From Deltaproteobacteria bacterium (lineage in GTDB: Bacteria > Desulfobacterota > Desulfomonilia > UBA1062), in assembly GCA_017992605.1 (NCBI GenBank), contig JAGOOG010000004.1:62001-126000 (forward strand): DNA of 64,000 bases. Reading direction: 5' to 3'. The notes beneath the pieces are model-generated. The model did not search any database. It was given only the letters and a program-made list of their open reading frames with translations, and had not been told where the DNA came from. Numbering within the stretch: position 1 is the stretch's first letter; every line of letters begins with the position of its first letter. Made by a program: the position numbers and the translations under genes. Of this stretch, positions 3,028 through 43,707 are shown piece after piece.

Positions 3028-4334
3028 CAGGGCTTCCTTGTCTTGTACGTGTCCTGGTCCATGTCCTGCAGGAAGACGGCATAGTAGCTCTCGTCGGTGT
3101 TCTCGTACCAGTCCATGCCCTGATCCCTGCAGGCGCGGCAGGCACCGTGCGGCACGTGAACGCCGAGGATGCGGTATCCCGTGGATGCCGACGAGTCGAT
3201 CCTGAACGCACCGGGGCATTCCTCGCAGTACCGGAAGACCTCCTGCTGGTTCTCGGAGATGCCGTCCGTGTCGTAATAGATGCTCCTGAACCTCTCGACG
3301 AAGGGCTTCCGTTCAGGCTTCAGGGCGGCCCGTGTGCGCCACATCCCATAGATCTGTTCACACAGCCGCTTGATGTAGTCGGTGACCTGGGGATCCTGTC
3401 TGAGGCTCTCCGGGTCGAAGTCTGGTTCCCGGATATACGAATAGTCGACCCCCGCCAGGGCGAGGATGATCCCGGTATTGACGTACGGCAGGGCACCCTC
3501 GATGGAGTACCCGCCCTCGAGCACGCAGATGTGGGGGCTGAGCATCTCGTTGAGCCGGGCATACCCCCCCGCCGAGAACGACATGTTGGTGATGGGATCG
3601 GTATAGTGGTTGTCCTGGCCCGCCGAATTGATGACGAGGTCCGGCTTGAAGTCGGCGAGAACCGGCATCACGACGTTCTCCATGGCGCACAGGATGCCCT
3701 CGTCGCTGGTCTTCGGCGGCAGCGGGATGTTCAGCGTAAGCCCTGCCGCATTGGGGCCGCCGTATTCGGCAGGGAAGCCGGACCCGGGATACAGGGTCCT
3801 GCCGTCCTGGTGGATGGATATGTAGAGCACATCCGGGTCGTGCCAGTAGATGTCCTGGGTGCCGTCTCCGTGGTGGCAGTCGGTGTCGACGATGGCGATC
3901 TTTTTTATTCTCGGGTAGTGCTTCCTCACCCACTCCACCATGACCGCCTCGATGTTTATGTTGCAGAAACCACGGGCGCCCTGGACCACCCTCATGGCAT
4001 GGTGGCCCGGGGGCCTCACGAGGGCGAACGCGTTGTCCACGATGCCGTCGAGCACGTGCCTGGCCGCTTCGATACATCCCCCCGCGGAGACGTTATGGGA
4101 CGGGGTGATGCAGGAGGCGACATCGGGGACGCAGAAGTGTGTCCTGGCGATGTCGTGCTCCCCGGCGAGGCCGGTCTTGAACTCGCTGATCCCCTCGATG
4201 TCGAGGATCCCCTCCTCCAGGACCTGGTCCTGCGTATAGAGGAGCCGCTCCTTGCGCTCCGGATGGGTGGGCGAGATCTCCCAGTCGTATGCCGGGAAGA
4301 ATATCAGCCCCGTCTTTCTGCGAGCCCTGATCAT
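3027..4334 (-). CDS. Histone-deacetylase-family amidohydrolase with C-terminal Cys-rich tail
   Basis: Zinc-dependent deacetylase of the HDAC/AcuC/acetylpolyamine amidohydrolase superfamily, 435 residues. Visible signatures in order are RPPGHHA, FCNINI, DTDCHHGDGTQ near residues 149-159 (metal-binding Asp/His), YPGSG, NSAGQDNHYTDP (second metal Asp) and LEGGY near residue 275 (catalytic Tyr). The substrate may be an acetylated polyamine, small amide or lysine. Past the catalytic fold there is an extra region of about 120 residues ending in a CEEC...CRAC pattern (about residues 369-400), a likely zinc ribbon. The start overlaps the preceding gene's stop (ATGA) and is preceded by a GGAG site; the stop overlaps patatin. 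Catalytic residues look intact. Confidence 0.9.
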   Translation of the reverse strand: MIRARRKTGLIFFPAYDWEISPTHPERKERLLYTQDQVLEEGILDIEGISEFKTGLAGEHDIARTHFCVPDVASCITPSHNVSAGGCIEAARHVLDGIVDNAFALVRPPGHHAMRVVQGARGFCNINIEAVMVEWVRKHYPRIKKIAIVDTDCHHGDGTQDIYWHDPDVLYISIHQDGRTLYPGSGFPAEYGGPNAAGLTLNIPLPPKTSDEGILCAMENVVMPVLADFKPDLVINSAGQDNHYTDPITNMSFSAGGYARLNEMLSPHICVLEGGYSIEGALPYVNTGIILALAGVDYSYIREPDFDPESLRQDPQVTDYIKRLCEQIYGMWRTRAALKPERKPFVERFRSIYYDTDGISENQQEVFRYCEECPGAFRIDSSASTGYRILGVHVPHGACRACRDQGMDWYENTDESYYAVFLQDMDQDTYKTRKP

Positions 4335-5983
4335 AGTCCTCTCCATTCCTGCAGGATTCCCGGCGTGGTCTGGATCTTGACCCTGAGGTTCCGTCCCACG
4401 GTGGAAAACCCTCGCACCATGTTGAAGCTCTGTTCCTCGATCACCTGGGCATCCACGCCGCTGGATAGACCGAGCTCTGCGGCGTGTTCCCGTATCGCGT
4501 CGAATCCCACGGCCTTGAGCTCCTCGATGCTCATGGTCCTGGGGACATCCTTGTGCAGGTTGAGCTCGGGACAGACCATCGTGCCGATCTGCGTGTCCGC
4601 GTGCAGGGTGATCTGGGCCGTGGTCCTGGCAAGCGCCGCCCCCAGGGCGTTGGCCACCATGGCATGGTCCGGCACCTTGCACTCCAGTCCGAAGGCATCG
4701 GCTATGTACGGCCTGAGAATGGCGGCCGGGCCGCCGATGAGGATCACCCGGTCGGGCCGCACAAGATCGGGATGGAGCATCTCATAGATGGTGTAGACGG
4801 GGTGGCTGTTCACCTCTTCGATGAATCGCAAGACCCCTTGCCTGATGGTTTCGACCATGGTTTCTATGGCCCTGCGGCTGAGCGTCTCGACATCCATGGA
4901 CAGCTGTTCGGCAAGGGGCGAGAGGGACTGCCTTGCCTTGAGCTCATCCCCTTCGAACGCCCCGAGCACCGCGAAGGCATCCGTTGGCGTCGGTGACGGC
5001 CCCCCCACGCAGACCGGCGGACCGCTCCTGCCGGGGCCTACGCGCAGTTCACCGTCTTCGACGGTTATGCACGAATCACCTCCCGCACCGACCGAGACGA
5101 CCCTGAGCCCGCGCACCAGGGTCCTGACTCCCCCGATATCGATACCCTTGGGCTCCAGCAGGGGTGTGCCGTTGACGAGGACCCCGATGTCGGTGGTCGT
5201 TCCGCCCACGTCCAGCACCAGGGCCGTTCCCTCGTGGCTTCGGTTCAGCGCCACCGCGCCCATGATGCTCGCCGCAGGGCCTGACAGGATGGTCTCCACC
5301 GGGAGCCTTCCTGCCGCAGCCGCTGCATAGGTACCCCCGTCGGCCTTGAGAAAGAACAGGGGGGCGCTGATGCCCAGGTCCTCGAGGGCCTGGGTGACGG
5401 CGGACATGAACCGCTCCTGCACGGGCATGACCGCCGTATTGAAATAGGTGGTGTTCAGCCGCCGGGGGAAATTGAGGCCCCCGCTCATGGTGTGCCCGAG
5501 GCAGACATGACGGAAATCATCCCTGATCAACGCGGCAATGGCAGCCTCATGGGCAGGATTCCTCACCGAGAACTTGGACACGACCCCTACCCCGACGCAG
5601 CCTGCCTCCCTCATGAGACGCGCGGCATCGCGCACCTCGTCCCGGTCGACGGGTATGTACTCCCGGCCCCGGTGGTCCAGCGCCCCCTGTACGTGATGAA
5701 ATGCCTCACCGATGAAGAACAGCTTCGGGTCGATGCCCGGGCCTGCCGAGCATATCATGCCGGTCTTCGGGTACTTTTTCTCCACAATGGCATTGGTGGA
5801 CAGGGTGGTGGACAGAACCACCCGCTTGATGCCGTCATGCTGCATGCCCAGAGCGTTGATGGCACCCAGGATGGAGCCGACCAGATCTTCCCGGGTCAGG
5901 GTTTTTGAAGTCGAAACGATGGAGCTTCCTCGAAGGCAGACCGCGTCGGTATGCGTGCCGCCGATGTCGATACCCAGTATCAT
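4331..5983 (-). CDS. Hydantoinase/oxoprolinase family protein (HyuA-like)
   Basis: Protein of 550 residues with the N-terminal hydantoinase-A fold and the ATPase-type core of the hydantoinase/5-oxoprolinase/acetone carboxylase beta superfamily. The phosphate-binding motifs of the actin-like ATPase fold are visible as GIDIGGTHTDAV at the N-terminus and LDVGGTTTDIGV in the middle, with a SGPAASIMGA segment between. The ATG at 5983 has a good AAAGGAG site; a longer frame upstream has none. Normally an HyuB partner is found nearby, but none is present here. The gene instead overlaps the deacetylase gene by 4 nt. A role in ATP-dependent opening of a cyclic amide or carboxylation is known for the family; the substrate here is unknown. 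Confidence 0.85.
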   Translation of the reverse strand: MILGIDIGGTHTDAVCLRGSSIVSTSKTLTREDLVGSILGAINALGMQHDGIKRVVLSTTLSTNAIVEKKYPKTGMICSAGPGIDPKLFFIGEAFHHVQGALDHRGREYIPVDRDEVRDAARLMREAGCVGVGVVSKFSVRNPAHEAAIAALIRDDFRHVCLGHTMSGGLNFPRRLNTTYFNTAVMPVQERFMSAVTQALEDLGISAPLFFLKADGGTYAAAAAGRLPVETILSGPAASIMGAVALNRSHEGTALVLDVGGTTTDIGVLVNGTPLLEPKGIDIGGVRTLVRGLRVVSVGAGGDSCITVEDGELRVGPGRSGPPVCVGGPSPTPTDAFAVLGAFEGDELKARQSLSPLAEQLSMDVETLSRRAIETMVETIRQGVLRFIEEVNSHPVYTIYEMLHPDLVRPDRVILIGGPAAILRPYIADAFGLECKVPDHAMVANALGAALARTTAQITLHADTQIGTMVCPELNLHKDVPRTMSIEELKAVGFDAIREHAAELGLSSGVDAQVIEEQSFNMVRGFSTVGRNLRVKIQTTPGILQEWRGL

Positions 5984-6206
5984 GCGTGACTCCTTTACGA
6001 GCGTGAGCGAGCATCCCGGAACGATCACAGGCCGGATGACAGCTCGGAGAATGCCTTGGCTGATCATACCAACTCATGGCCGAAAATTCAATCGCCCCGG
6101 GGCATCGGTGGGCGTTCCCGCCATGGATGAGATACGGTCCTCGGTCTCCTTGCACTCCTGCGATGGATCTGGTAGATCACGAATGGAAGAATTCCCGGAG
6201 GTTTCA

Positions 6207-7340
6207 TTGAAGAGACTACTGTGCGCATGCGTGGCCATGCTTCTCATCCTGGGATGCTCCACGACCGATCCCGAACTGACGGATGCGAGCATAACCGACG
6301 ACAACCCCGTGGTCGGTCAGCGGGTCTATGCCCAGGTCTATGCCATAACGGACGATCCGCCCATGACCTACGAGTGGTCGGCCAGCGGCGGGACGCTCGA
6401 TGTGGATGGAGACTTCCCGTACACGACCTACTGGACGGCGCCGATGACCTCCGGACCATATACCATAACCTGCAGGATTCTCGACAACGACGGGAACCAG
6501 GCTCTGTACACCTACAGGATCGAGGTGCGTGAGCGGTCGCTTCAAGGCGACGTCATCGGTGGTGGCAGGAAGGCCATCACCATGACCAAGCAGTCCGACT
6601 CCAGCATCGGGGGCATCTGGGTCTCCGTCAGGGACGACGCGCTGCGGTTCGTCTCTTCCAGGTCCAACGAGGGCAGCGTATGGAGCAAGAACTTCTTCAC
6701 CATGCTCGCCAGGACCGATTCCTATACCGGCTATTACACCATATGGGGTGCAGCGGCGCAGGGCAGGGACATCTCCGTTCTCACATCGGACGTTGATGCG
6801 ACGCTGGCCTGCGGGACATGCCTCGCCACCGATACGATACAGGCCCTGGCCAAGGATGTCCTCGATGACACCATTCTCTGGGTGGGCACGGATTCGAGCC
6901 TGAGTTACTATGACCAGGTCAACGACTTCTGGGGCACATTCCTGTTCGTGAATGTCCATGACCTTTCCGAGGGTCCTGACTATGTCTATGCGGCGACGGG
7001 CAGCGGCATATACCGGCTCGATGGTCGACTGGAGCCTGTCTACAGCGGGGATTCCCGGGCGGTTCTCGCCGTGGGGAACGACGGCGTCACGGATGTATGG
7101 TCAGTCACCCAGGGAAAGATCAGGAAGAACGGGCAGAACCTCGCTTCGCAGCCGTCGTCGGTGGTGAGCAGCCTGGATCTGGACATTTCGGGAAACGTCT
7201 GGTGCGGGAAATACCGGTGGGACGGCAGCCGGTGGCATCAGGTCCCGGGACTGGAACGCGTGACCGTGGTCAAATCGGTCGCGAGCACGGAAGGTCTGAT
7301 CTATTTCCTGTCCGATTCAGGGATTCTGTACCGCTGGTGA
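6207..7340 (+). CDS. Lipoprotein with Ig/PKD-like domain and propeller-like repeats
   Basis: Predicted outer-envelope lipoprotein, 377 residues. The TTG start at 6207 has GGAGG five bases upstream and gives a compact signal sequence ending in the lipobox LILGC; an in-frame ATG at 6183 is the alternative. Residues about 20-105 look like an Ig/PKD-type beta domain (TYEWSASGG, GPYTITCRI). The rest contains recurring strands such as ILWVGTDSSLSYYD, YVYAATGSGIYRLDG and IYFLSDSGILYRW, the spacing and wording of two-component-regulator or YVTN-type beta-propeller blades. No catalytic motif is visible. Its 3' end overlaps the convergent lipoprotein gene by 24 nt. Confidence 0.75.
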   Translation: MKRLLCACVAMLLILGCSTTDPELTDASITDDNPVVGQRVYAQVYAITDDPPMTYEWSASGGTLDVDGDFPYTTYWTAPMTSGPYTITCRILDNDGNQALYTYRIEVRERSLQGDVIGGGRKAITMTKQSDSSIGGIWVSVRDDALRFVSSRSNEGSVWSKNFFTMLARTDSYTGYYTIWGAAAQGRDISVLTSDVDATLACGTCLATDTIQALAKDVLDDTILWVGTDSSLSYYDQVNDFWGTFLFVNVHDLSEGPDYVYAATGSGIYRLDGRLEPVYSGDSRAVLAVGNDGVTDVWSVTQGKIRKNGQNLASQPSSVVSSLDLDISGNVWCGKYRWDGSRWHQVPGLERVTVVKSVASTEGLIYFLSDSGILYRW

Positions 7341-7877
7341 GTGTGTCCTGGAGGCGATGTCGTTTGCGACGGCCTTCAGGGCGCTGTTCATGACCTCTTC
7401 GATATAAGGCGAGGGTACATCCACCCTGCGAAGCCATGCCAGGTGGAAGGCGCTCTTTTCGGACGAGGCCTTCACAGAGCGCTGGAACCTCACCCGGGAG
7501 TCCGAGGTGCTGACCACCCTGATGGTCAGGAATACCGTGGTGGGGCCCTCGTTCCCCCCAAAGAAGAGATGTTCGAGGGTTCCGTCCACGACGTAGTTCG
7601 TATCGGGGACCGCGCCCTGTGCGACGGTGACCTGACCGAAGGCCCTGTTCTCCATGAGGTAATCCGCCAGCTTCCGGGAAGCATACGTTCCCCATGATTC
7701 ATCGCCCGCCGCGTGAAAGGGGACGACCGCGGCGGAGCCCAGATAAGCACCGGGAAGCCCCGCGTCCACCTGGGTGGACACCTCGGTGACTCGGGTGGGT
7801 TTCACGAGGGCGCAGCCGGCGATAACCAGAAGGAGAAGAAAGAGAAGAAAGAAGATGAGCGCTGATCGTCTCGGCAT
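7317..7877 (-). CDS. Lipoprotein of unknown function
   Basis: 186-residue lipoprotein: a basic start (MPRR), a long Leu-rich core and the lipobox VIAGC. The mature part contains AAVVPF, a LADYLMENRAFGQVTV segment and VDGTLEHLFFGG, a pattern seen in periplasmic TolB-N/LpoB-like or transport-auxiliary lipoproteins in which a Rossmann-like half domain follows the lipid anchor. I cannot name a specific function. It converges on the preceding propeller lipoprotein with a 24-nt overlap, and it follows the minus-strand pilin gene with a 51-nt gap, so the two may be cotranscribed. Confidence 0.7.
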   Translation of the reverse strand: MPRRSALIFFLLFLLLLVIAGCALVKPTRVTEVSTQVDAGLPGAYLGSAAVVPFHAAGDESWGTYASRKLADYLMENRAFGQVTVAQGAVPDTNYVVDGTLEHLFFGGNEGPTTVFLTIRVVSTSDSRVRFQRSVKASSEKSAFHLAWLRRVDVPSPYIEEVMNSALKAVANDIASRTHSPAVQNP

Positions 7878-39863: not shown

Positions 39864-40199
39864 ATGAGTGGCGAAAAGGCATACTGCATGGTCATGTGCG
39901 CATGCCCGGACAGCGTTCTCGCTGAGAAGCTCGCTGGATCGCTCGTGGCCAACAAGTTCGCGGCCTGTGTTCAGATACTCCCCATACGGAGCTTTTACCA
40001 GTGGAAGGGAGCCGTCTGCCGCGACGAGGAAGTGCTTCTTCTCATCAAAACGAGGGGCTCCCTCTACGGGGAGGTCGAGGCCTTCATCGCGCGGTCCCAT
40101 CCCTATGAGGTTCCTGAAATCGTGAGATGCGAGATCACGGGCGGTCTTCAGAGATACCTCGCATGGATCGACGACGTGACCAGCCAGGACCTTGGATAA
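39864..40199 (+). CDS. cutA: Divalent-cation tolerance protein CutA
   Basis: 111-residue CutA1, a trimeric PII-like ferredoxin-fold protein. It shows ACPDSVLAEKLAGSLVANKFAACVQILPI, the loop FYQWKGAVCRDEEVLLLIKT and the C-terminal HPYEVPEIV, all defining for CutA. Its biological role, classically metal tolerance, is uncertain. The ATG at 39864 was chosen for the family start; an upstream frame adds unrelated sequence. A ParA promoter begins two bases after its stop. Confidence 0.93.
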   Translation: MSGEKAYCMVMCACPDSVLAEKLAGSLVANKFAACVQILPIRSFYQWKGAVCRDEEVLLLIKTRGSLYGEVEAFIARSHPYEVPEIVRCEITGGLQRYLAWIDDVTSQDLG

Positions 40200-40200
40200 A

Positions 40201-40236
40201 GTGTCATTGACACACGGGTAAGGTTTTACGTATCGT
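40201..40236 (+). promoter_or_regulatory. parA promoter with palindrome over the -35 box
   Basis: A perfect palindrome GTGTCATTGACAC (40201-40213) includes the -35 TTGACA (40207-40212); 18 nt later TATCGT (40231-40236) is the -10. A strong hairpin (GGTGC-CGC-GGG-GCG-GCACC, 40240-40260) then lies in the leader. The layout suggests autorepression. Confidence 0.55.
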
Positions 40237-40297
40237 TGAGGTGCACGCGGGGCGAGCACCGTGTGCAGTGCAGTGATTTCCTTATGCAGGGGCGGCC

Positions 40298-41047
40298 ATG
40301 ATCATCAGCTTTGTCCAGACCAAGGGCGGTACGGGGAAGAGCACGCTTGCCCTCAACACGGCATTCTCGAACCATATGAACCGGGTCTTCACGTCGGTGG
40401 CCCTGGTGGAACTCGACCCCCAGGGGACCCTGAGGACCTGGTGGCACGAACGGTCGGAACTCGGCAGAGACCCGGGCAGGGTATCGTTCCACCATATCTC
40501 GAGCAGCCAGAAGGAGGTCTTTGCCGACGGCATCAAGGCGATCGCCGCACACAACGACCTGATCGTCATGGATATCCCCGGGGAGAGCACGGGCAAGCTC
40601 CATACGCGTTTTGCCTGCGCCGTGTCCGACCTCGTCATCATCCCCATGAGGACCTCCACCAATGACGAGGCTGCCTTTGCAGACAACCTCTACCCCATCA
40701 TCAAGGAGGTGATCAAGATCGACCCCGGGAAGAAGGGAGGCTTCCACGTTCTGCCCTCCTTCACTCATCCCAAGGCGAACAGGGACACCATCGTGGGATA
40801 CTTCACCGATATCCTCCCGCCCCACGTGGGTTGTCTGCGGGCCATTTATCCGGACAGGTCGGTCTATGAAAACTTCAATCGTGACGGCGCGACCCTGTAC
40901 GAGTACGCCGATTCGGTGAAGGAGAACAAACGGTATTCAAAGCAGGCGCTTTCGGCCGCAGGGGATGTCGAACAGATCGCACAGATCATAACGCAGATGC
41001 TGGAGAACAACCATGTCTCTTCCCAGAAAAAGAAAAAGGCTCTATGA
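40298..41047 (+). CDS. ParA/MinD-family ATPase (orphan)
   Basis: 249-residue deviant Walker A ATPase. The P-loop is KGGTGKST with the signature lysine, Walker A' is VELDPQGTLRTWW (switch I), and MDIPGES corresponds to the Walker B side. Family members form dynamic gradients on nucleoid or membrane and position plasmids, chromosomes, chemoreceptor arrays, flagella or carboxysomes. No ParB gene follows; instead a small basic protein overlaps it by 35 nt. The N-terminus lacks a DNA-binding HTH, as in small ParA (type Ib-like). A palindrome over the -35 box implies self-regulation. Confidence 0.88.
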   Translation: MIISFVQTKGGTGKSTLALNTAFSNHMNRVFTSVALVELDPQGTLRTWWHERSELGRDPGRVSFHHISSSQKEVFADGIKAIAAHNDLIVMDIPGESTGKLHTRFACAVSDLVIIPMRTSTNDEAAFADNLYPIIKEVIKIDPGKKGGFHVLPSFTHPKANRDTIVGYFTDILPPHVGCLRAIYPDRSVYENFNRDGATLYEYADSVKENKRYSKQALSAAGDVEQIAQIITQMLENNHVSSQKKKKAL

Positions 41048-41447
41048 GAACCAGGTCCCGGTCGAGGAGAATCAGTCCGGCCGGCACACAAAGAAATCTT
41101 CGGGAAATCCTTCATCCGGGGTGTCGGCAAGGACCACCCAGATGCAGAAGGCCTTCGAGATCGTGGACCACATCGAGCACACGCACGATGCCCCTGAAGT
41201 GCCGGAAACCGCAGCACCCCGTCGGCCGCCGGTCCGCGGAGAATCGCCCGACCCGGAAGGATTCAGGATGAAGGTGTCTCTCGGGACCGACCCCGGCGTA
41301 CCCCAGACCGGCGACAACGGCCCCGGGGGTCCAGCGGAACCGTTCATCGAGGTGAGGCTCACGATCCCGGCCTTCCTCTGGAAGGTGCCTGTCCTGGGGG
41401 GCGTCGCCAGGAGTCTTGTCCGGAGGATCTCGAAGGAACAGGCCTGA
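41013..41447 (+). CDS. Small basic protein, candidate ParA partner
   Basis: 144-residue protein of no recognised family, overlapping the parA gene by 35 nt in another frame, hence probably co-expressed. The N-terminus is strongly basic (PRKRKRLYEN), as in the ParA-stimulating tails of ParB and of cargo adaptors. The middle is low-complexity, rich in Pro, Gly, Glu and Lys. The C-terminal 35 residues (IEVRLTIPAFLWKVPVLGGVARSLVRRI) form an amphipathic, partly hydrophobic segment that could bind membrane or cargo. No catalytic motif is seen. Confidence 0.6.
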   Translation: MSLPRKRKRLYENQVPVEENQSGRHTKKSSGNPSSGVSARTTQMQKAFEIVDHIEHTHDAPEVPETAAPRRPPVRGESPDPEGFRMKVSLGTDPGVPQTGDNGPGGPAEPFIEVRLTIPAFLWKVPVLGGVARSLVRRISKEQA

Positions 41448-41520
41448 TCGACCGGCGCCGTGCCCCTCGACCCCTGGATAGGTCGGTTCCCGGCCCTTTT
41501 CGAAAGACCCGAGACCACCA

Positions 41521-41549
41521 TTGAGTTTTCCCTGGAGACTTGCTATAAA
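41521..41549 (+). promoter_or_regulatory. Promoter of the Prc-type protease gene
   Basis: TTGAGT (41521-41526), a 17-nt spacer and TATAAA (41544-41549); predicted start about 41556, 25 nt before the ATG at 41581. This excludes the upstream in-frame ATG at 41521 as the start. Confidence 0.55.
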
Positions 41550-41580
41550 CCCAGACACTGAACTCTCACAAAGCAGGCAC

Positions 41581-43707
41581 ATGGGCACGAAGACACGATA
41601 TACAGGCATCCTCTTCCTTGCATGGTTCATTACCGTAGCGGCCTGCCAGAGCTCACGTGCAGCCCCTGAATCCCTGGGCCCGTCCGACTACATCAAGGTC
41701 ATCACACCCCTTGCCGAGCACAGCCGGGTGGCCGTCGAGATCATCAAGGATCTCAAGAGGAATCACTTCCGCAAGGTATCCATCGACGATGCCCTCTCCA
41801 GCAAGGTCTTCGAACGGCTGCTGAGCGACATCGACGCTTCTCGGCTCTACTTCCTCGCATCAGACATCAAGGAATTCGAACCCTACCGCAACCGCCTCGA
41901 TGACGCCTTCCTCAGGGGGGACATGAAGCCGCCCTTCAGGATCTTCAACCGATATCAGGAAAGGCTGGCCCAACGCCTCATCTTCACCATCAAGCATGCG
42001 GACAGTGGGCTCAAGGACCTGAACCTCGAAAAGGACGAGTTCTTCGAGACCGATCGGGAAAAAGCACCCTGGCCTTCATCTCAGGCCGAGCTCGAAGGGC
42101 TGTGGCTCAAGGCCCTCAAGCACGAGGTCATCAACATGAGGCTCGAAGGCACGCAGATGGACGAGATCGCTCGGACCTTGTCCAAGCGTTACTGGAACCA
42201 GCTCAGACGTCTCCGGCAGAACACCAGCGAGGATGTCTTCCAGATATCCGTGAACGCTCTTACAGCCTGCTATGATCCCCACACCTCGTATTTCTCGCCC
42301 CGATCATCCGAGAACTTCAACATCAACATGAGCCTGTCTCTGGAAGGTATCGGCGCCATGCTCACGGCGGACAACGAATATACCAAGGTCGTCCACCTGG
42401 TGCCTGGCGGGCCTGCCGACAAGTCCGGCCTCATCAAACCCAATGACCGTATCCTCGGAGTCGGCCAGGGTTCCGAGGGAGAGATCGTCGACGTGGTGGG
42501 ATGGCGGCTCGATGACGTTGTGGACCTCATCCGCGGTCCCAAGAACACAATGGTCAGACTCAAGGTCATCCCCGCCTCCGCCAGCGATGAGCACCAGACC
42601 AAGGTCATCAGGCTGGTACGGAGCACCGTCAGGCTGGAGGACCAGGCAGCGAGCAAGGACATCATCGATATCAAGAGGAAAGACCGGACCTACAGAATAG
42701 GCGTCATCCACGTCCCCACGTTCTACCTCGACATCAAGGCGATGCAGTCCTACACGAACAACTACAAGAGCACCACGCGTGACGTGAAACGCATCCTGAA
42801 CGAGCTGTCCATGCAGAAGGTGGATGGAGTGGTCGTCGATCTCAGGGACAACGGCGGCGGCCTGCTCCACGAGGCGAACACCCTGACGGGCCTGTTCATA
42901 AAGGGCGGCCCCACGGTACAGATCCGCTCGGCCGACGGCGATACCGAGACCCTCTATGACCGGGATCCGAGTATTTCCTACACGGGTCCTCTCGCGGTGA
43001 TCATCAGCAGGATGAGCGCCTCCGCCTCGGAGATATTTGCCGGCGCCATCCAGGATTACGGCAGGGGGATCATCATAGGAGACAACAGTTTCGGCAAGGG
43101 CACGGTCCAGACGCTGCTCTCCCTGTCCAGGGGACAGATCAAGGTGACCACGTCGAAGTTCTACCGCATCTCCGGCGAGAGCACCCAGCATCGCGGTATC
43201 GTGCCGGACCTGGAGTACCCGGACATGTACGACAGAGAGAGCATAGGCGAAAGCACCCTCAAGGACGCGCTGCCCTGGGATGTCATCGGGGCAGTGCCCC
43301 ATTTCACCTATGGCGATATCGCCTCATACAAGGCTCAGCTCAGGTCCTCGTACAAGGCCCGTATGGAACGTGATCCCGACTACGTGTACATGAACGAGAT
43401 GAATGAATATCTGAAGGCATCCCGGGAAAAGACACGGGTGTCACTGAAGCTGTCCACGCGGATCAAGGAAAAGAAGAAGGCCGAGGACGACAGGCTGGCC
43501 ATTGAGAACAGGCTTCTCAAGGCCAAGGGCTTGAAGCCCGTCACGAGCGTCGATGACCTCGACGAGGACAAGGATGACGCCCAGCAGAGGACCAAACCGA
43601 CCAAGCAAGACGCGGAACTGGTCGAGAGCGGGAACATACTGGTCGACTTCATCACGCTCAGGGGCAAGAAAAACGGGTCAGGAGCCCTCAGGATAGGCAT
43701 ACAATAG
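41581..43707 (+). CDS. prc: Carboxy-terminal processing protease (Prc/Tsp, S41)
   Basis: 708-residue S41A protease of the long E. coli Prc/Tsp type. N-terminal signal ends in VAAC, a possible lipobox. After a helical N-terminal domain (about 35-230) comes a PDZ domain (GIGAMLTADNEYTKVVHLVPGGPADKSGL). The Ser-Lys dyad is Ser481 in SASASEIF and Lys506 in FGKGTVQ, 25 residues apart as in E. coli. A C-terminal DUF3340-like tail follows, with a Lys/Glu-rich linker. It degrades or trims periplasmic proteins by recognising nonpolar C-termini, and in E. coli acts with NlpI on Spr. Confidence 0.94.
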   Translation: MGTKTRYTGILFLAWFITVAACQSSRAAPESLGPSDYIKVITPLAEHSRVAVEIIKDLKRNHFRKVSIDDALSSKVFERLLSDIDASRLYFLASDIKEFEPYRNRLDDAFLRGDMKPPFRIFNRYQERLAQRLIFTIKHADSGLKDLNLEKDEFFETDREKAPWPSSQAELEGLWLKALKHEVINMRLEGTQMDEIARTLSKRYWNQLRRLRQNTSEDVFQISVNALTACYDPHTSYFSPRSSENFNINMSLSLEGIGAMLTADNEYTKVVHLVPGGPADKSGLIKPNDRILGVGQGSEGEIVDVVGWRLDDVVDLIRGPKNTMVRLKVIPASASDEHQTKVIRLVRSTVRLEDQAASKDIIDIKRKDRTYRIGVIHVPTFYLDIKAMQSYTNNYKSTTRDVKRILNELSMQKVDGVVVDLRDNGGGLLHEANTLTGLFIKGGPTVQIRSADGDTETLYDRDPSISYTGPLAVIISRMSASASEIFAGAIQDYGRGIIIGDNSFGKGTVQTLLSLSRGQIKVTTSKFYRISGESTQHRGIVPDLEYPDMYDRESIGESTLKDALPWDVIGAVPHFTYGDIASYKAQLRSSYKARMERDPDYVYMNEMNEYLKASREKTRVSLKLSTRIKEKKKAEDDRLAIENRLLKAKGLKPVTSVDDLDEDKDDAQQRTKPTKQDAELVESGNILVDFITLRGKKNGSGALRIGIQ

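Follow-up and report, generated by a model that had tools for sequence, protein, structure and literature searches.

A ParA-type ATPase gene and the small gene directly downstream of it form a real and conserved two-gene module in the window, the term used here for the whole 64-kb stretch of DNA that was analysed. We judge, with a probability of roughly three in four, that this module serves to position a cargo, and the general class of mechanism is likely. Evident from the comparison of genomes are the pairing itself, its conservation, an N-terminal tag common to the partner proteins, and the replacement of the partner's C-terminal part by a CheW or DUF697 domain in relatives. These swaps, as read from sequence, support a ParA-plus-adaptor module with exchangeable cargo modules, and they make the adaptor reading concrete.

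In the proposed mechanism, ParA would bind ATP, dimerise and coat the nucleoid, as expected from its family. The basic tag and a short helix of the adaptor would dock on the ParA dimer, and the docked adaptor would trigger ATP hydrolysis by ParA. The C-terminal strand-helix module of the adaptor, with its Trp-x-x-Pro, would grip the cargo, which would then follow the ParA gradient and be spaced or shared between daughter cells.

The ParA gene, its partner and their setting

The features of the locus are as follows.

40201-40213, no strand assigned: palindrome GTGTCATTGACAC overlapping the -35 box, an inverted repeat that we attribute to chance (repeat counts and upstream comparison)
40207-40236, + strand: sigma-70-type promoter, TTGACA-18-TATCGT (one site found, 0.4 expected)
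40232-40277, + strand: leader hairpin (z = -1.04; 31 of 200 shuffles as stable)
40298-41047, + strand: ParA-type ATPase, 249 aa (ORF call)
41013-41447, + strand: adaptor, 144 aa (ORF call; conserved beside ParA)
41013-41042, + strand: N-terminal tag MSLPRKRKRL, proposed ParA-docking element (tag pattern in relatives' partners)
41151-41177, + strand: helix motif AFEIVDHIE, residues 47-55 (motif counts; helix in a low-confidence model)
41343-41444, + strand: C-terminal module FIEVRLTIPAFLWKVPVLGG..., proposed cargo-binding part (conserved W-[KRQND]-x-P)

The ATPase lies above the Pfam cut-offs for AAA_31 (8.3e-9), MipZ (1.4e-7) and CbiA. Its best NCBIfam match is NF041546, the ParA family partition ATPase (ParA_partition, 2.7e-24), yet its score of 85.9 bits falls short of the 180 required, which makes it a non-member by that model. 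The deviant Walker A sequence KGGTGK occupies residues 9-14, each of which (K9, G10, G11, T12, G13 and K14) is invariant among 33 sequences; D40 and D92, which we take to be the Walker A' and Walker B positions, are also invariant. The hallmark of ParA/MinD (A/D) ATPases, a deviant Walker A KGGxxK with the signature lysine, is thus present together with matches to the ParA fold. A structure search with an AlphaFold model of moderate quality (pLDDT 74.8, pTM 0.72) returned ParF/TP228 ParA chains as the best matches (Z 20-21).

The pair is chromosomal. It lies between cutA (Pfam 9.4e-34) upstream and a tail-specific protease gene downstream; its neighbours are housekeeping genes, and the GC3 of the ParA gene (0.79) is similar to theirs. 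We considered and rejected the idea that the window copy came from a phage or plasmid: the plasmid matches listed reach at most 34.6% identity, all 1159 records and all 12 phage records are below 60%, and no viral contig matched. An aldehyde ferredoxin oxidoreductase gene is found about 9 kb upstream in the window, which may mean nothing. An earlier note, made from the window's letters, had described this ParA as lacking a ParB, and this is borne out: no ParB gene was found adjoining it, and the single ParB_N match in the genome is on another contig (C53), next to an ORF of 267 aa that resembles Soj. Given this separate parAB, the window's ParA is a second, orphan ParA, and chromosome segregation is already covered.

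The adaptor ORF starts 35 nt inside the 3' end of the ParA gene, with a GGAG ending 7 nt ahead of its ATG, and the protein has no match in Pfam (best E 0.15), NCBIfam or PHROG. The claim that a 144-residue protein of no known family begins within ParA therefore holds, as does that of a KR-rich N-terminus, seen as the tag listed above. An AlphaFold model of low confidence (mean pLDDT 54) is mostly disordered, with a helix at residues 39-54 and a strand/helix C-terminus. The disordered middle that had been suggested agrees with this low-confidence model; the amphipathic C-terminal segment suggested alongside it does not survive, since 157 of 1000 shuffles gave an equally high hydrophobic moment and the C-terminal helix is thus not significantly amphipathic. 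Neither Pfam nor NCBIfam places a DNA-binding family in the window adaptor, and Pfam finds no CheW-like (AIF) domain. Its cargo module has no counterpart in Pfam and no PDB match at E < 0.05 (A3 profile); with the A2 profile, no PDB chain matched at E 1e-10. The A-rich overlap of the two genes (41013-41047) is lysine-rich in both frames (QKKKKAL in the ParA tail, PRKRKRL in the adaptor), a feature that is not kept where the genes do not overlap, for example in L006 and L007.

The same note had proposed that the pair regulates itself through a palindrome over the -35 box and a strong leader hairpin. The palindrome is indeed perfect, yet perfect 6-nt inverted repeats occur 29 times in the window with a spacer of exactly 1 nt and 104 times if the spacer may be 0-3 nt, and the palindrome pattern with two mismatches was found 3 times versus 2.42 expected. 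TTGACA occurs 80-130 nt before ParA in nine of the ten upstream regions compared (the exception is L150), mostly as TTGACAC; the left arm, GTGTCA, is not kept in the relatives' upstream regions, where only the TTGACA half is conserved. Given a palindrome at chance level, conservation of its TTGACA half only, and a hairpin of the z-score listed above, we regard this as an ordinary promoter with no evidence for an operator. Both elements were rejected as regulatory, and with them the proposed self-regulation loses its support. The broader proposal, a ParA-adaptor positioning pair with a possibly new partner family, withstood the refuting conditions that the note had set for it, as described below.

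Conservation of the pair and its shared tag

Among the loci read from Thermodesulfobacteriota, SAR324, Leptospiraceae and Gemmatimonadaceae MAGs, almost all have a partner gene after ParA. The exception is L117 (G454; 4268-7817), where a more distant ParA of the SAR324 set has a cNMP-binding hybrid histidine kinase behind it and no adaptor directly downstream. Sequence and order of the pair are kept in f1, family f62, other Desulfobacterales, Leptospiraceae, SAR324 and one Gemmatimonadaceae MAG. The earlier note had let its case depend on conservation of the small protein beside ParA and on an intact frame: the pair is kept across families and phyla, and the frame is intact in every close relative examined except one (G003, locus L030).

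At E 1e-5, six of 60 genomes gave ParA matches: G000, G003, G011 and G018, together with G016, where it is a remnant, and G020, whose ParA is distant. The adaptor was convincingly matched in G000, G001 (at a contig edge), G003, G011 and G018; 12 of its 17 matching genomes scored weaker than 5e-4 and were treated as chance. A search of genome contigs yielded seven loci with the partner after ParA in all of them, that of L032 being cut by the contig end with its start visible. ParA was matched in 3 of 395 genomes of a phylum sample (G000 included), 10 of 52 in the SAR324-phylum set, 19 of 36 in family f62, 1 of 64 among Gemmatimonadota, and 25 of 389 in the order of G425, these being mostly the f62 genomes again. 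The distribution is patchy. Locus L035 lies on a 5-kb contig and its ParA groups with that of SAR324 locus L063, and misbinning is therefore possible.

The pair is under purifying selection, with dN/dS of 0.07-0.18 for ParA (four pairs of relatives) and 0.30-0.52 for the adaptor (five pairs). Decay exists and is local. In the closest relative, G003, the adaptor has lost its Trp-Pro segment to a deletion that breaks the C-terminus (L030, 980-1444); in G016 a ParA remnant with an in-frame stop, recognisable over residues 27-83 only, sits directly behind cutA (L008, 1434-1768); and no ParA match was obtained in two genomes of the same genus, G002 and G004.

The adaptors can be divided into three parts, namely the tag, the helix motif and the cargo part. 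Partners bear the N-terminal tag M-x-[LVI]-P-[KR]-[KR]-x-K and/or the helix motif A-F-E-x-h-[DE]-x-[IL], and their C-terminal halves differ. The tag pattern was found in all short-type partners outside f62 (11/11), all DUF697 types (5/5), all CheW types (5/5) and both plasmid/mobile partners (2/2). It occurs in none of the 19 f62 partners, three of which still start M-x-x-P-[KR]. The helix motif is present in 33 of 37 adaptors versus 47 of 7400 shuffled sequences; L034, L062, L071 and L076 lack it and have near variants, and L061 was left out of this count because it shares a contig with L034. Both patterns were drawn from the same sequences in which they were counted, and therefore these counts describe the family and do not test it. 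Among short-type adaptors, 27 of 28 contain W-[KRQND]-x-P, which only L030, the one with the deletion, lacks, and the W and both P are invariant in the 24 rows of the A3 alignment. The lack of the tag in f62 and the patchy distribution count against the module reading.

Exchanged C-terminal modules and candidate cargo

Behind the tag, the C-terminal forms are CheW within che clusters, DUF697, the short Trp-x-x-Pro module, and the plasmid/mobile partner. CheW-type adaptors (L064-L068) come from five genomes of the SAR324 set; L064 (2.7e-38) and L067 (1.1e-41) match Pfam CheW, and the others were assigned by clustering. All five of these loci run cheA-ParA-adaptor-cheR-cheB and continue with three more clusters common to all of them, taken by eye to be CheD, CheY and CheX/CheC; CheA, CheR and CheB were confirmed by Pfam in L113 only. 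The DUF697 match was obtained in all four adaptors scanned (L034, L035, L063 and L071), and a fifth (L062) was assigned by clustering. The short module is carried by the window, f1, f62, other Desulfobacterales and Leptospiraceae. In the ParA tree, the CheW-type ATPases form one group (95/97) and the DUF697 types another (99/95); the branches of the DNA-type ParAs are very long, and where these ParAs belong is unsure.

These forms may reflect a portable ParA-docking tag that has moved among cargo modules (plasmid partner, CheW, DUF697 and Trp-Pro), two of which would position acyl or polyketide assemblies or their lipid products, with the window as the Trp-Pro form. We offer this extension tentatively and consider it rather unlikely as a whole.

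Its acyl-chemistry part deserves separate treatment as a sub-case of the module reading, in which the adaptor would anchor reductase or synthase complexes for fatty aldehydes or polyketides, or their lipid product, and ParA would spread them. An acyl-thioester reductase, a protein of the 700-aa type, is present in all 19 f62 loci examined. In 16 it precedes ParA in the same orientation, with gaps of -8 to 401 nt; in the other three it is present and the ParA ORF was masked in gene calling. The C-terminal half of the f62 reductase matches PigE-like (1.5e-54) and long-chain acyl-ACP reductase (1.2e-18) models and PDB 6jzq (2e-13). At the Desulfobacterales loci L031 and L036, two reductase copies and an alpha/beta hydrolase are found immediately downstream, convergent on the opposite strand; dehydratases are found at L033, and genes of L149 resemble the Fe-alcohol-dehydrogenase/SCP2 protein that adjoins the reductase in three f62 loci. 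On the DUF697 side, a type I polyketide synthase (PKS) directly follows the adaptor in three of four SAR324 loci (L108, L109 and L116, from two genomes; the Pfam scan covered the first 800 residues of the L109 gene), and L035 has a thioesterase-domain gene 1.3 kb beyond it.

However, L110 has an amylase in place of the PKS, the window's neighbours are cutA and the tail-specific protease, a search at E 1e-10 found no such reductase in G000, G001, G011, G016 or G018, and none is nearby in L147, L149 or L150. The acyl reductase was therefore rejected as a universal partner, being absent from G000, and lipid or aldehyde chemistry is a lead and not a result. An assembly or membrane site of acyl or lipid metabolism is the best lead for the cargo of the window's form, though one on which we would not rely; that the pair serves acyl-thioester assemblies as such strikes us as possible but doubtful.

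Two other cargo candidates were considered. PHA synthase shows no pattern with ParA in the genomes searched: PhaC_N occurs in G000, G003 and G011, not in G001 (G018 was outside this search), and also in G002 and G004, both without ParA. The shell-protein family of bacterial microcompartments (BMC; PF00936) was found in 0 of 25 genomes, G000 included, with E. coli and S. elongatus positive as controls.

Some neighbouring genes are recorded here as observations. A metallo-beta-lactamase-fold protein often follows the f62 adaptor (L043, 7771-8640; YtnP 4.1e-60, below cut-off; 12 of 39 clustered loci) and resembles quorum-quenching lactonases. Divergent to the ParA-DUF697-PKS genes of L109 (6327-8370) and L116 are an SPFH/band-7-like gene (by eye, c60) and a second conserved gene (c59).

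Relation to known ParA systems

The closest system by ATPase structure is ParF/ParG of plasmid TP228 (type Ib partition), in which ParG is a small partner encoded downstream of ParF with a basic N-terminus. The ParA fold and the position and basic N-terminus of the partner are the same in the window. The window pair differs in being chromosomal, in having a partner without a recognised DNA-binding domain, and in an identity of about 24%. A DNA partition pair of this kind, whose small protein would bind a centromere, either close to the pair or carried by a mobile element, while ParA segregates the DNA, gains from this likeness and from sister ParAs in mobile settings. One is found with a tagged partner and a Rep3 initiator on a Rep3 plasmid contig (L148), and another with a small basic partner beside a primase-like gene (L042). 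We nevertheless consider such a function improbable for the window, where no DNA-binding family is seen in the adaptor, a search of 40150-41700 revealed just short two-copy repeats and no iteron-like array, the neighbours are housekeeping genes of similar GC3, and among the plasmid matches listed none exceeds 35% identity, with none in viral contigs. Furthermore, CheW, which replaces the C-terminus in relatives, is not a DNA-binding domain. A ribbon-helix-helix suspected by eye in the plasmid/mobile partners was rejected, with no Pfam match in L148, L042 or L070; L070 has weak PHROG matches and L037 a sub-threshold RHH_3. It is very improbable that what we see is a mobile-element partition module in decay and without present role. 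The broken L030 adaptor, the G016 remnant and the absences from G002 and G004 speak for this reading; the dN/dS values given above speak against it, as do distant families in which the frames are intact and the motifs conserved.

The positioning module has closer parallels among systems with other cargoes. PMC5706961 describes chemotaxis arrays as positioned by ParC/ParP, with ParP consisting of an N-terminal ParC-binding part and a CheW-like AIF domain. The SAR324 relatives pair ParA with a CheW-ending adaptor in a che cluster, whereas the window adaptor lacks CheW; this comparison is one of architecture. The likeness to McdA/McdB of carboxysomes is a small disordered partner with a basic N-terminus. 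The first 20 residues of McdB are reported to be necessary and sufficient for ATPase binding (PMC12204374), and a C-terminal Trp is reported to matter for cargo (PMC11321042). The window differs in the missing BMC shell protein noted above, and McdA (6non) reaches only Z 16.1 against the window ParA model.

More generally, basic-rich N-termini of partners dock ParA-family ATPases, according to PMC10241942 and PMC12204374, and in the account of the former the charged N-terminus of an A/D ATPase partner serves the ATPase while the remainder serves the cargo. The window's partner is likewise encoded by a neighbouring gene and has a basic, disordered N-terminus, the disorder being that of a low-confidence model. 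By analogy, the window ParA family appears to follow this published logic. PMC10241942 also notes that many ParA ATPases are called 'orphan' because their partners are too diverse to recognise.

In the literature searched, we found nothing on ParA with DUF697, nothing relevant by title on DUF697, and, among the papers listed, nothing relevant by title on ParA with polyketide synthase or acyl-ACP reductase; given that 'para' is an ambiguous search word, this absence is weak evidence. With that caveat, what may be new relative to this literature is the partner family, the way a single ParA clade uses one tag over several cargo modules, and the neighbourhoods with PKS or acyl-reductase genes.

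For this single ParA clade, the partner can be read from the genome, since a common N-terminal tag stands before different cargo modules. That arrangement permits a direct test by swapping tags or by placing the tag on GFP. The clade also points to cargo such as polyketide synthases or acyl reductases, which we have not found reported for ParA in the literature searched. If this is true, assemblies that make acyl or polyketide compounds, or their lipid products, would be a cargo class not yet known for ParA systems.
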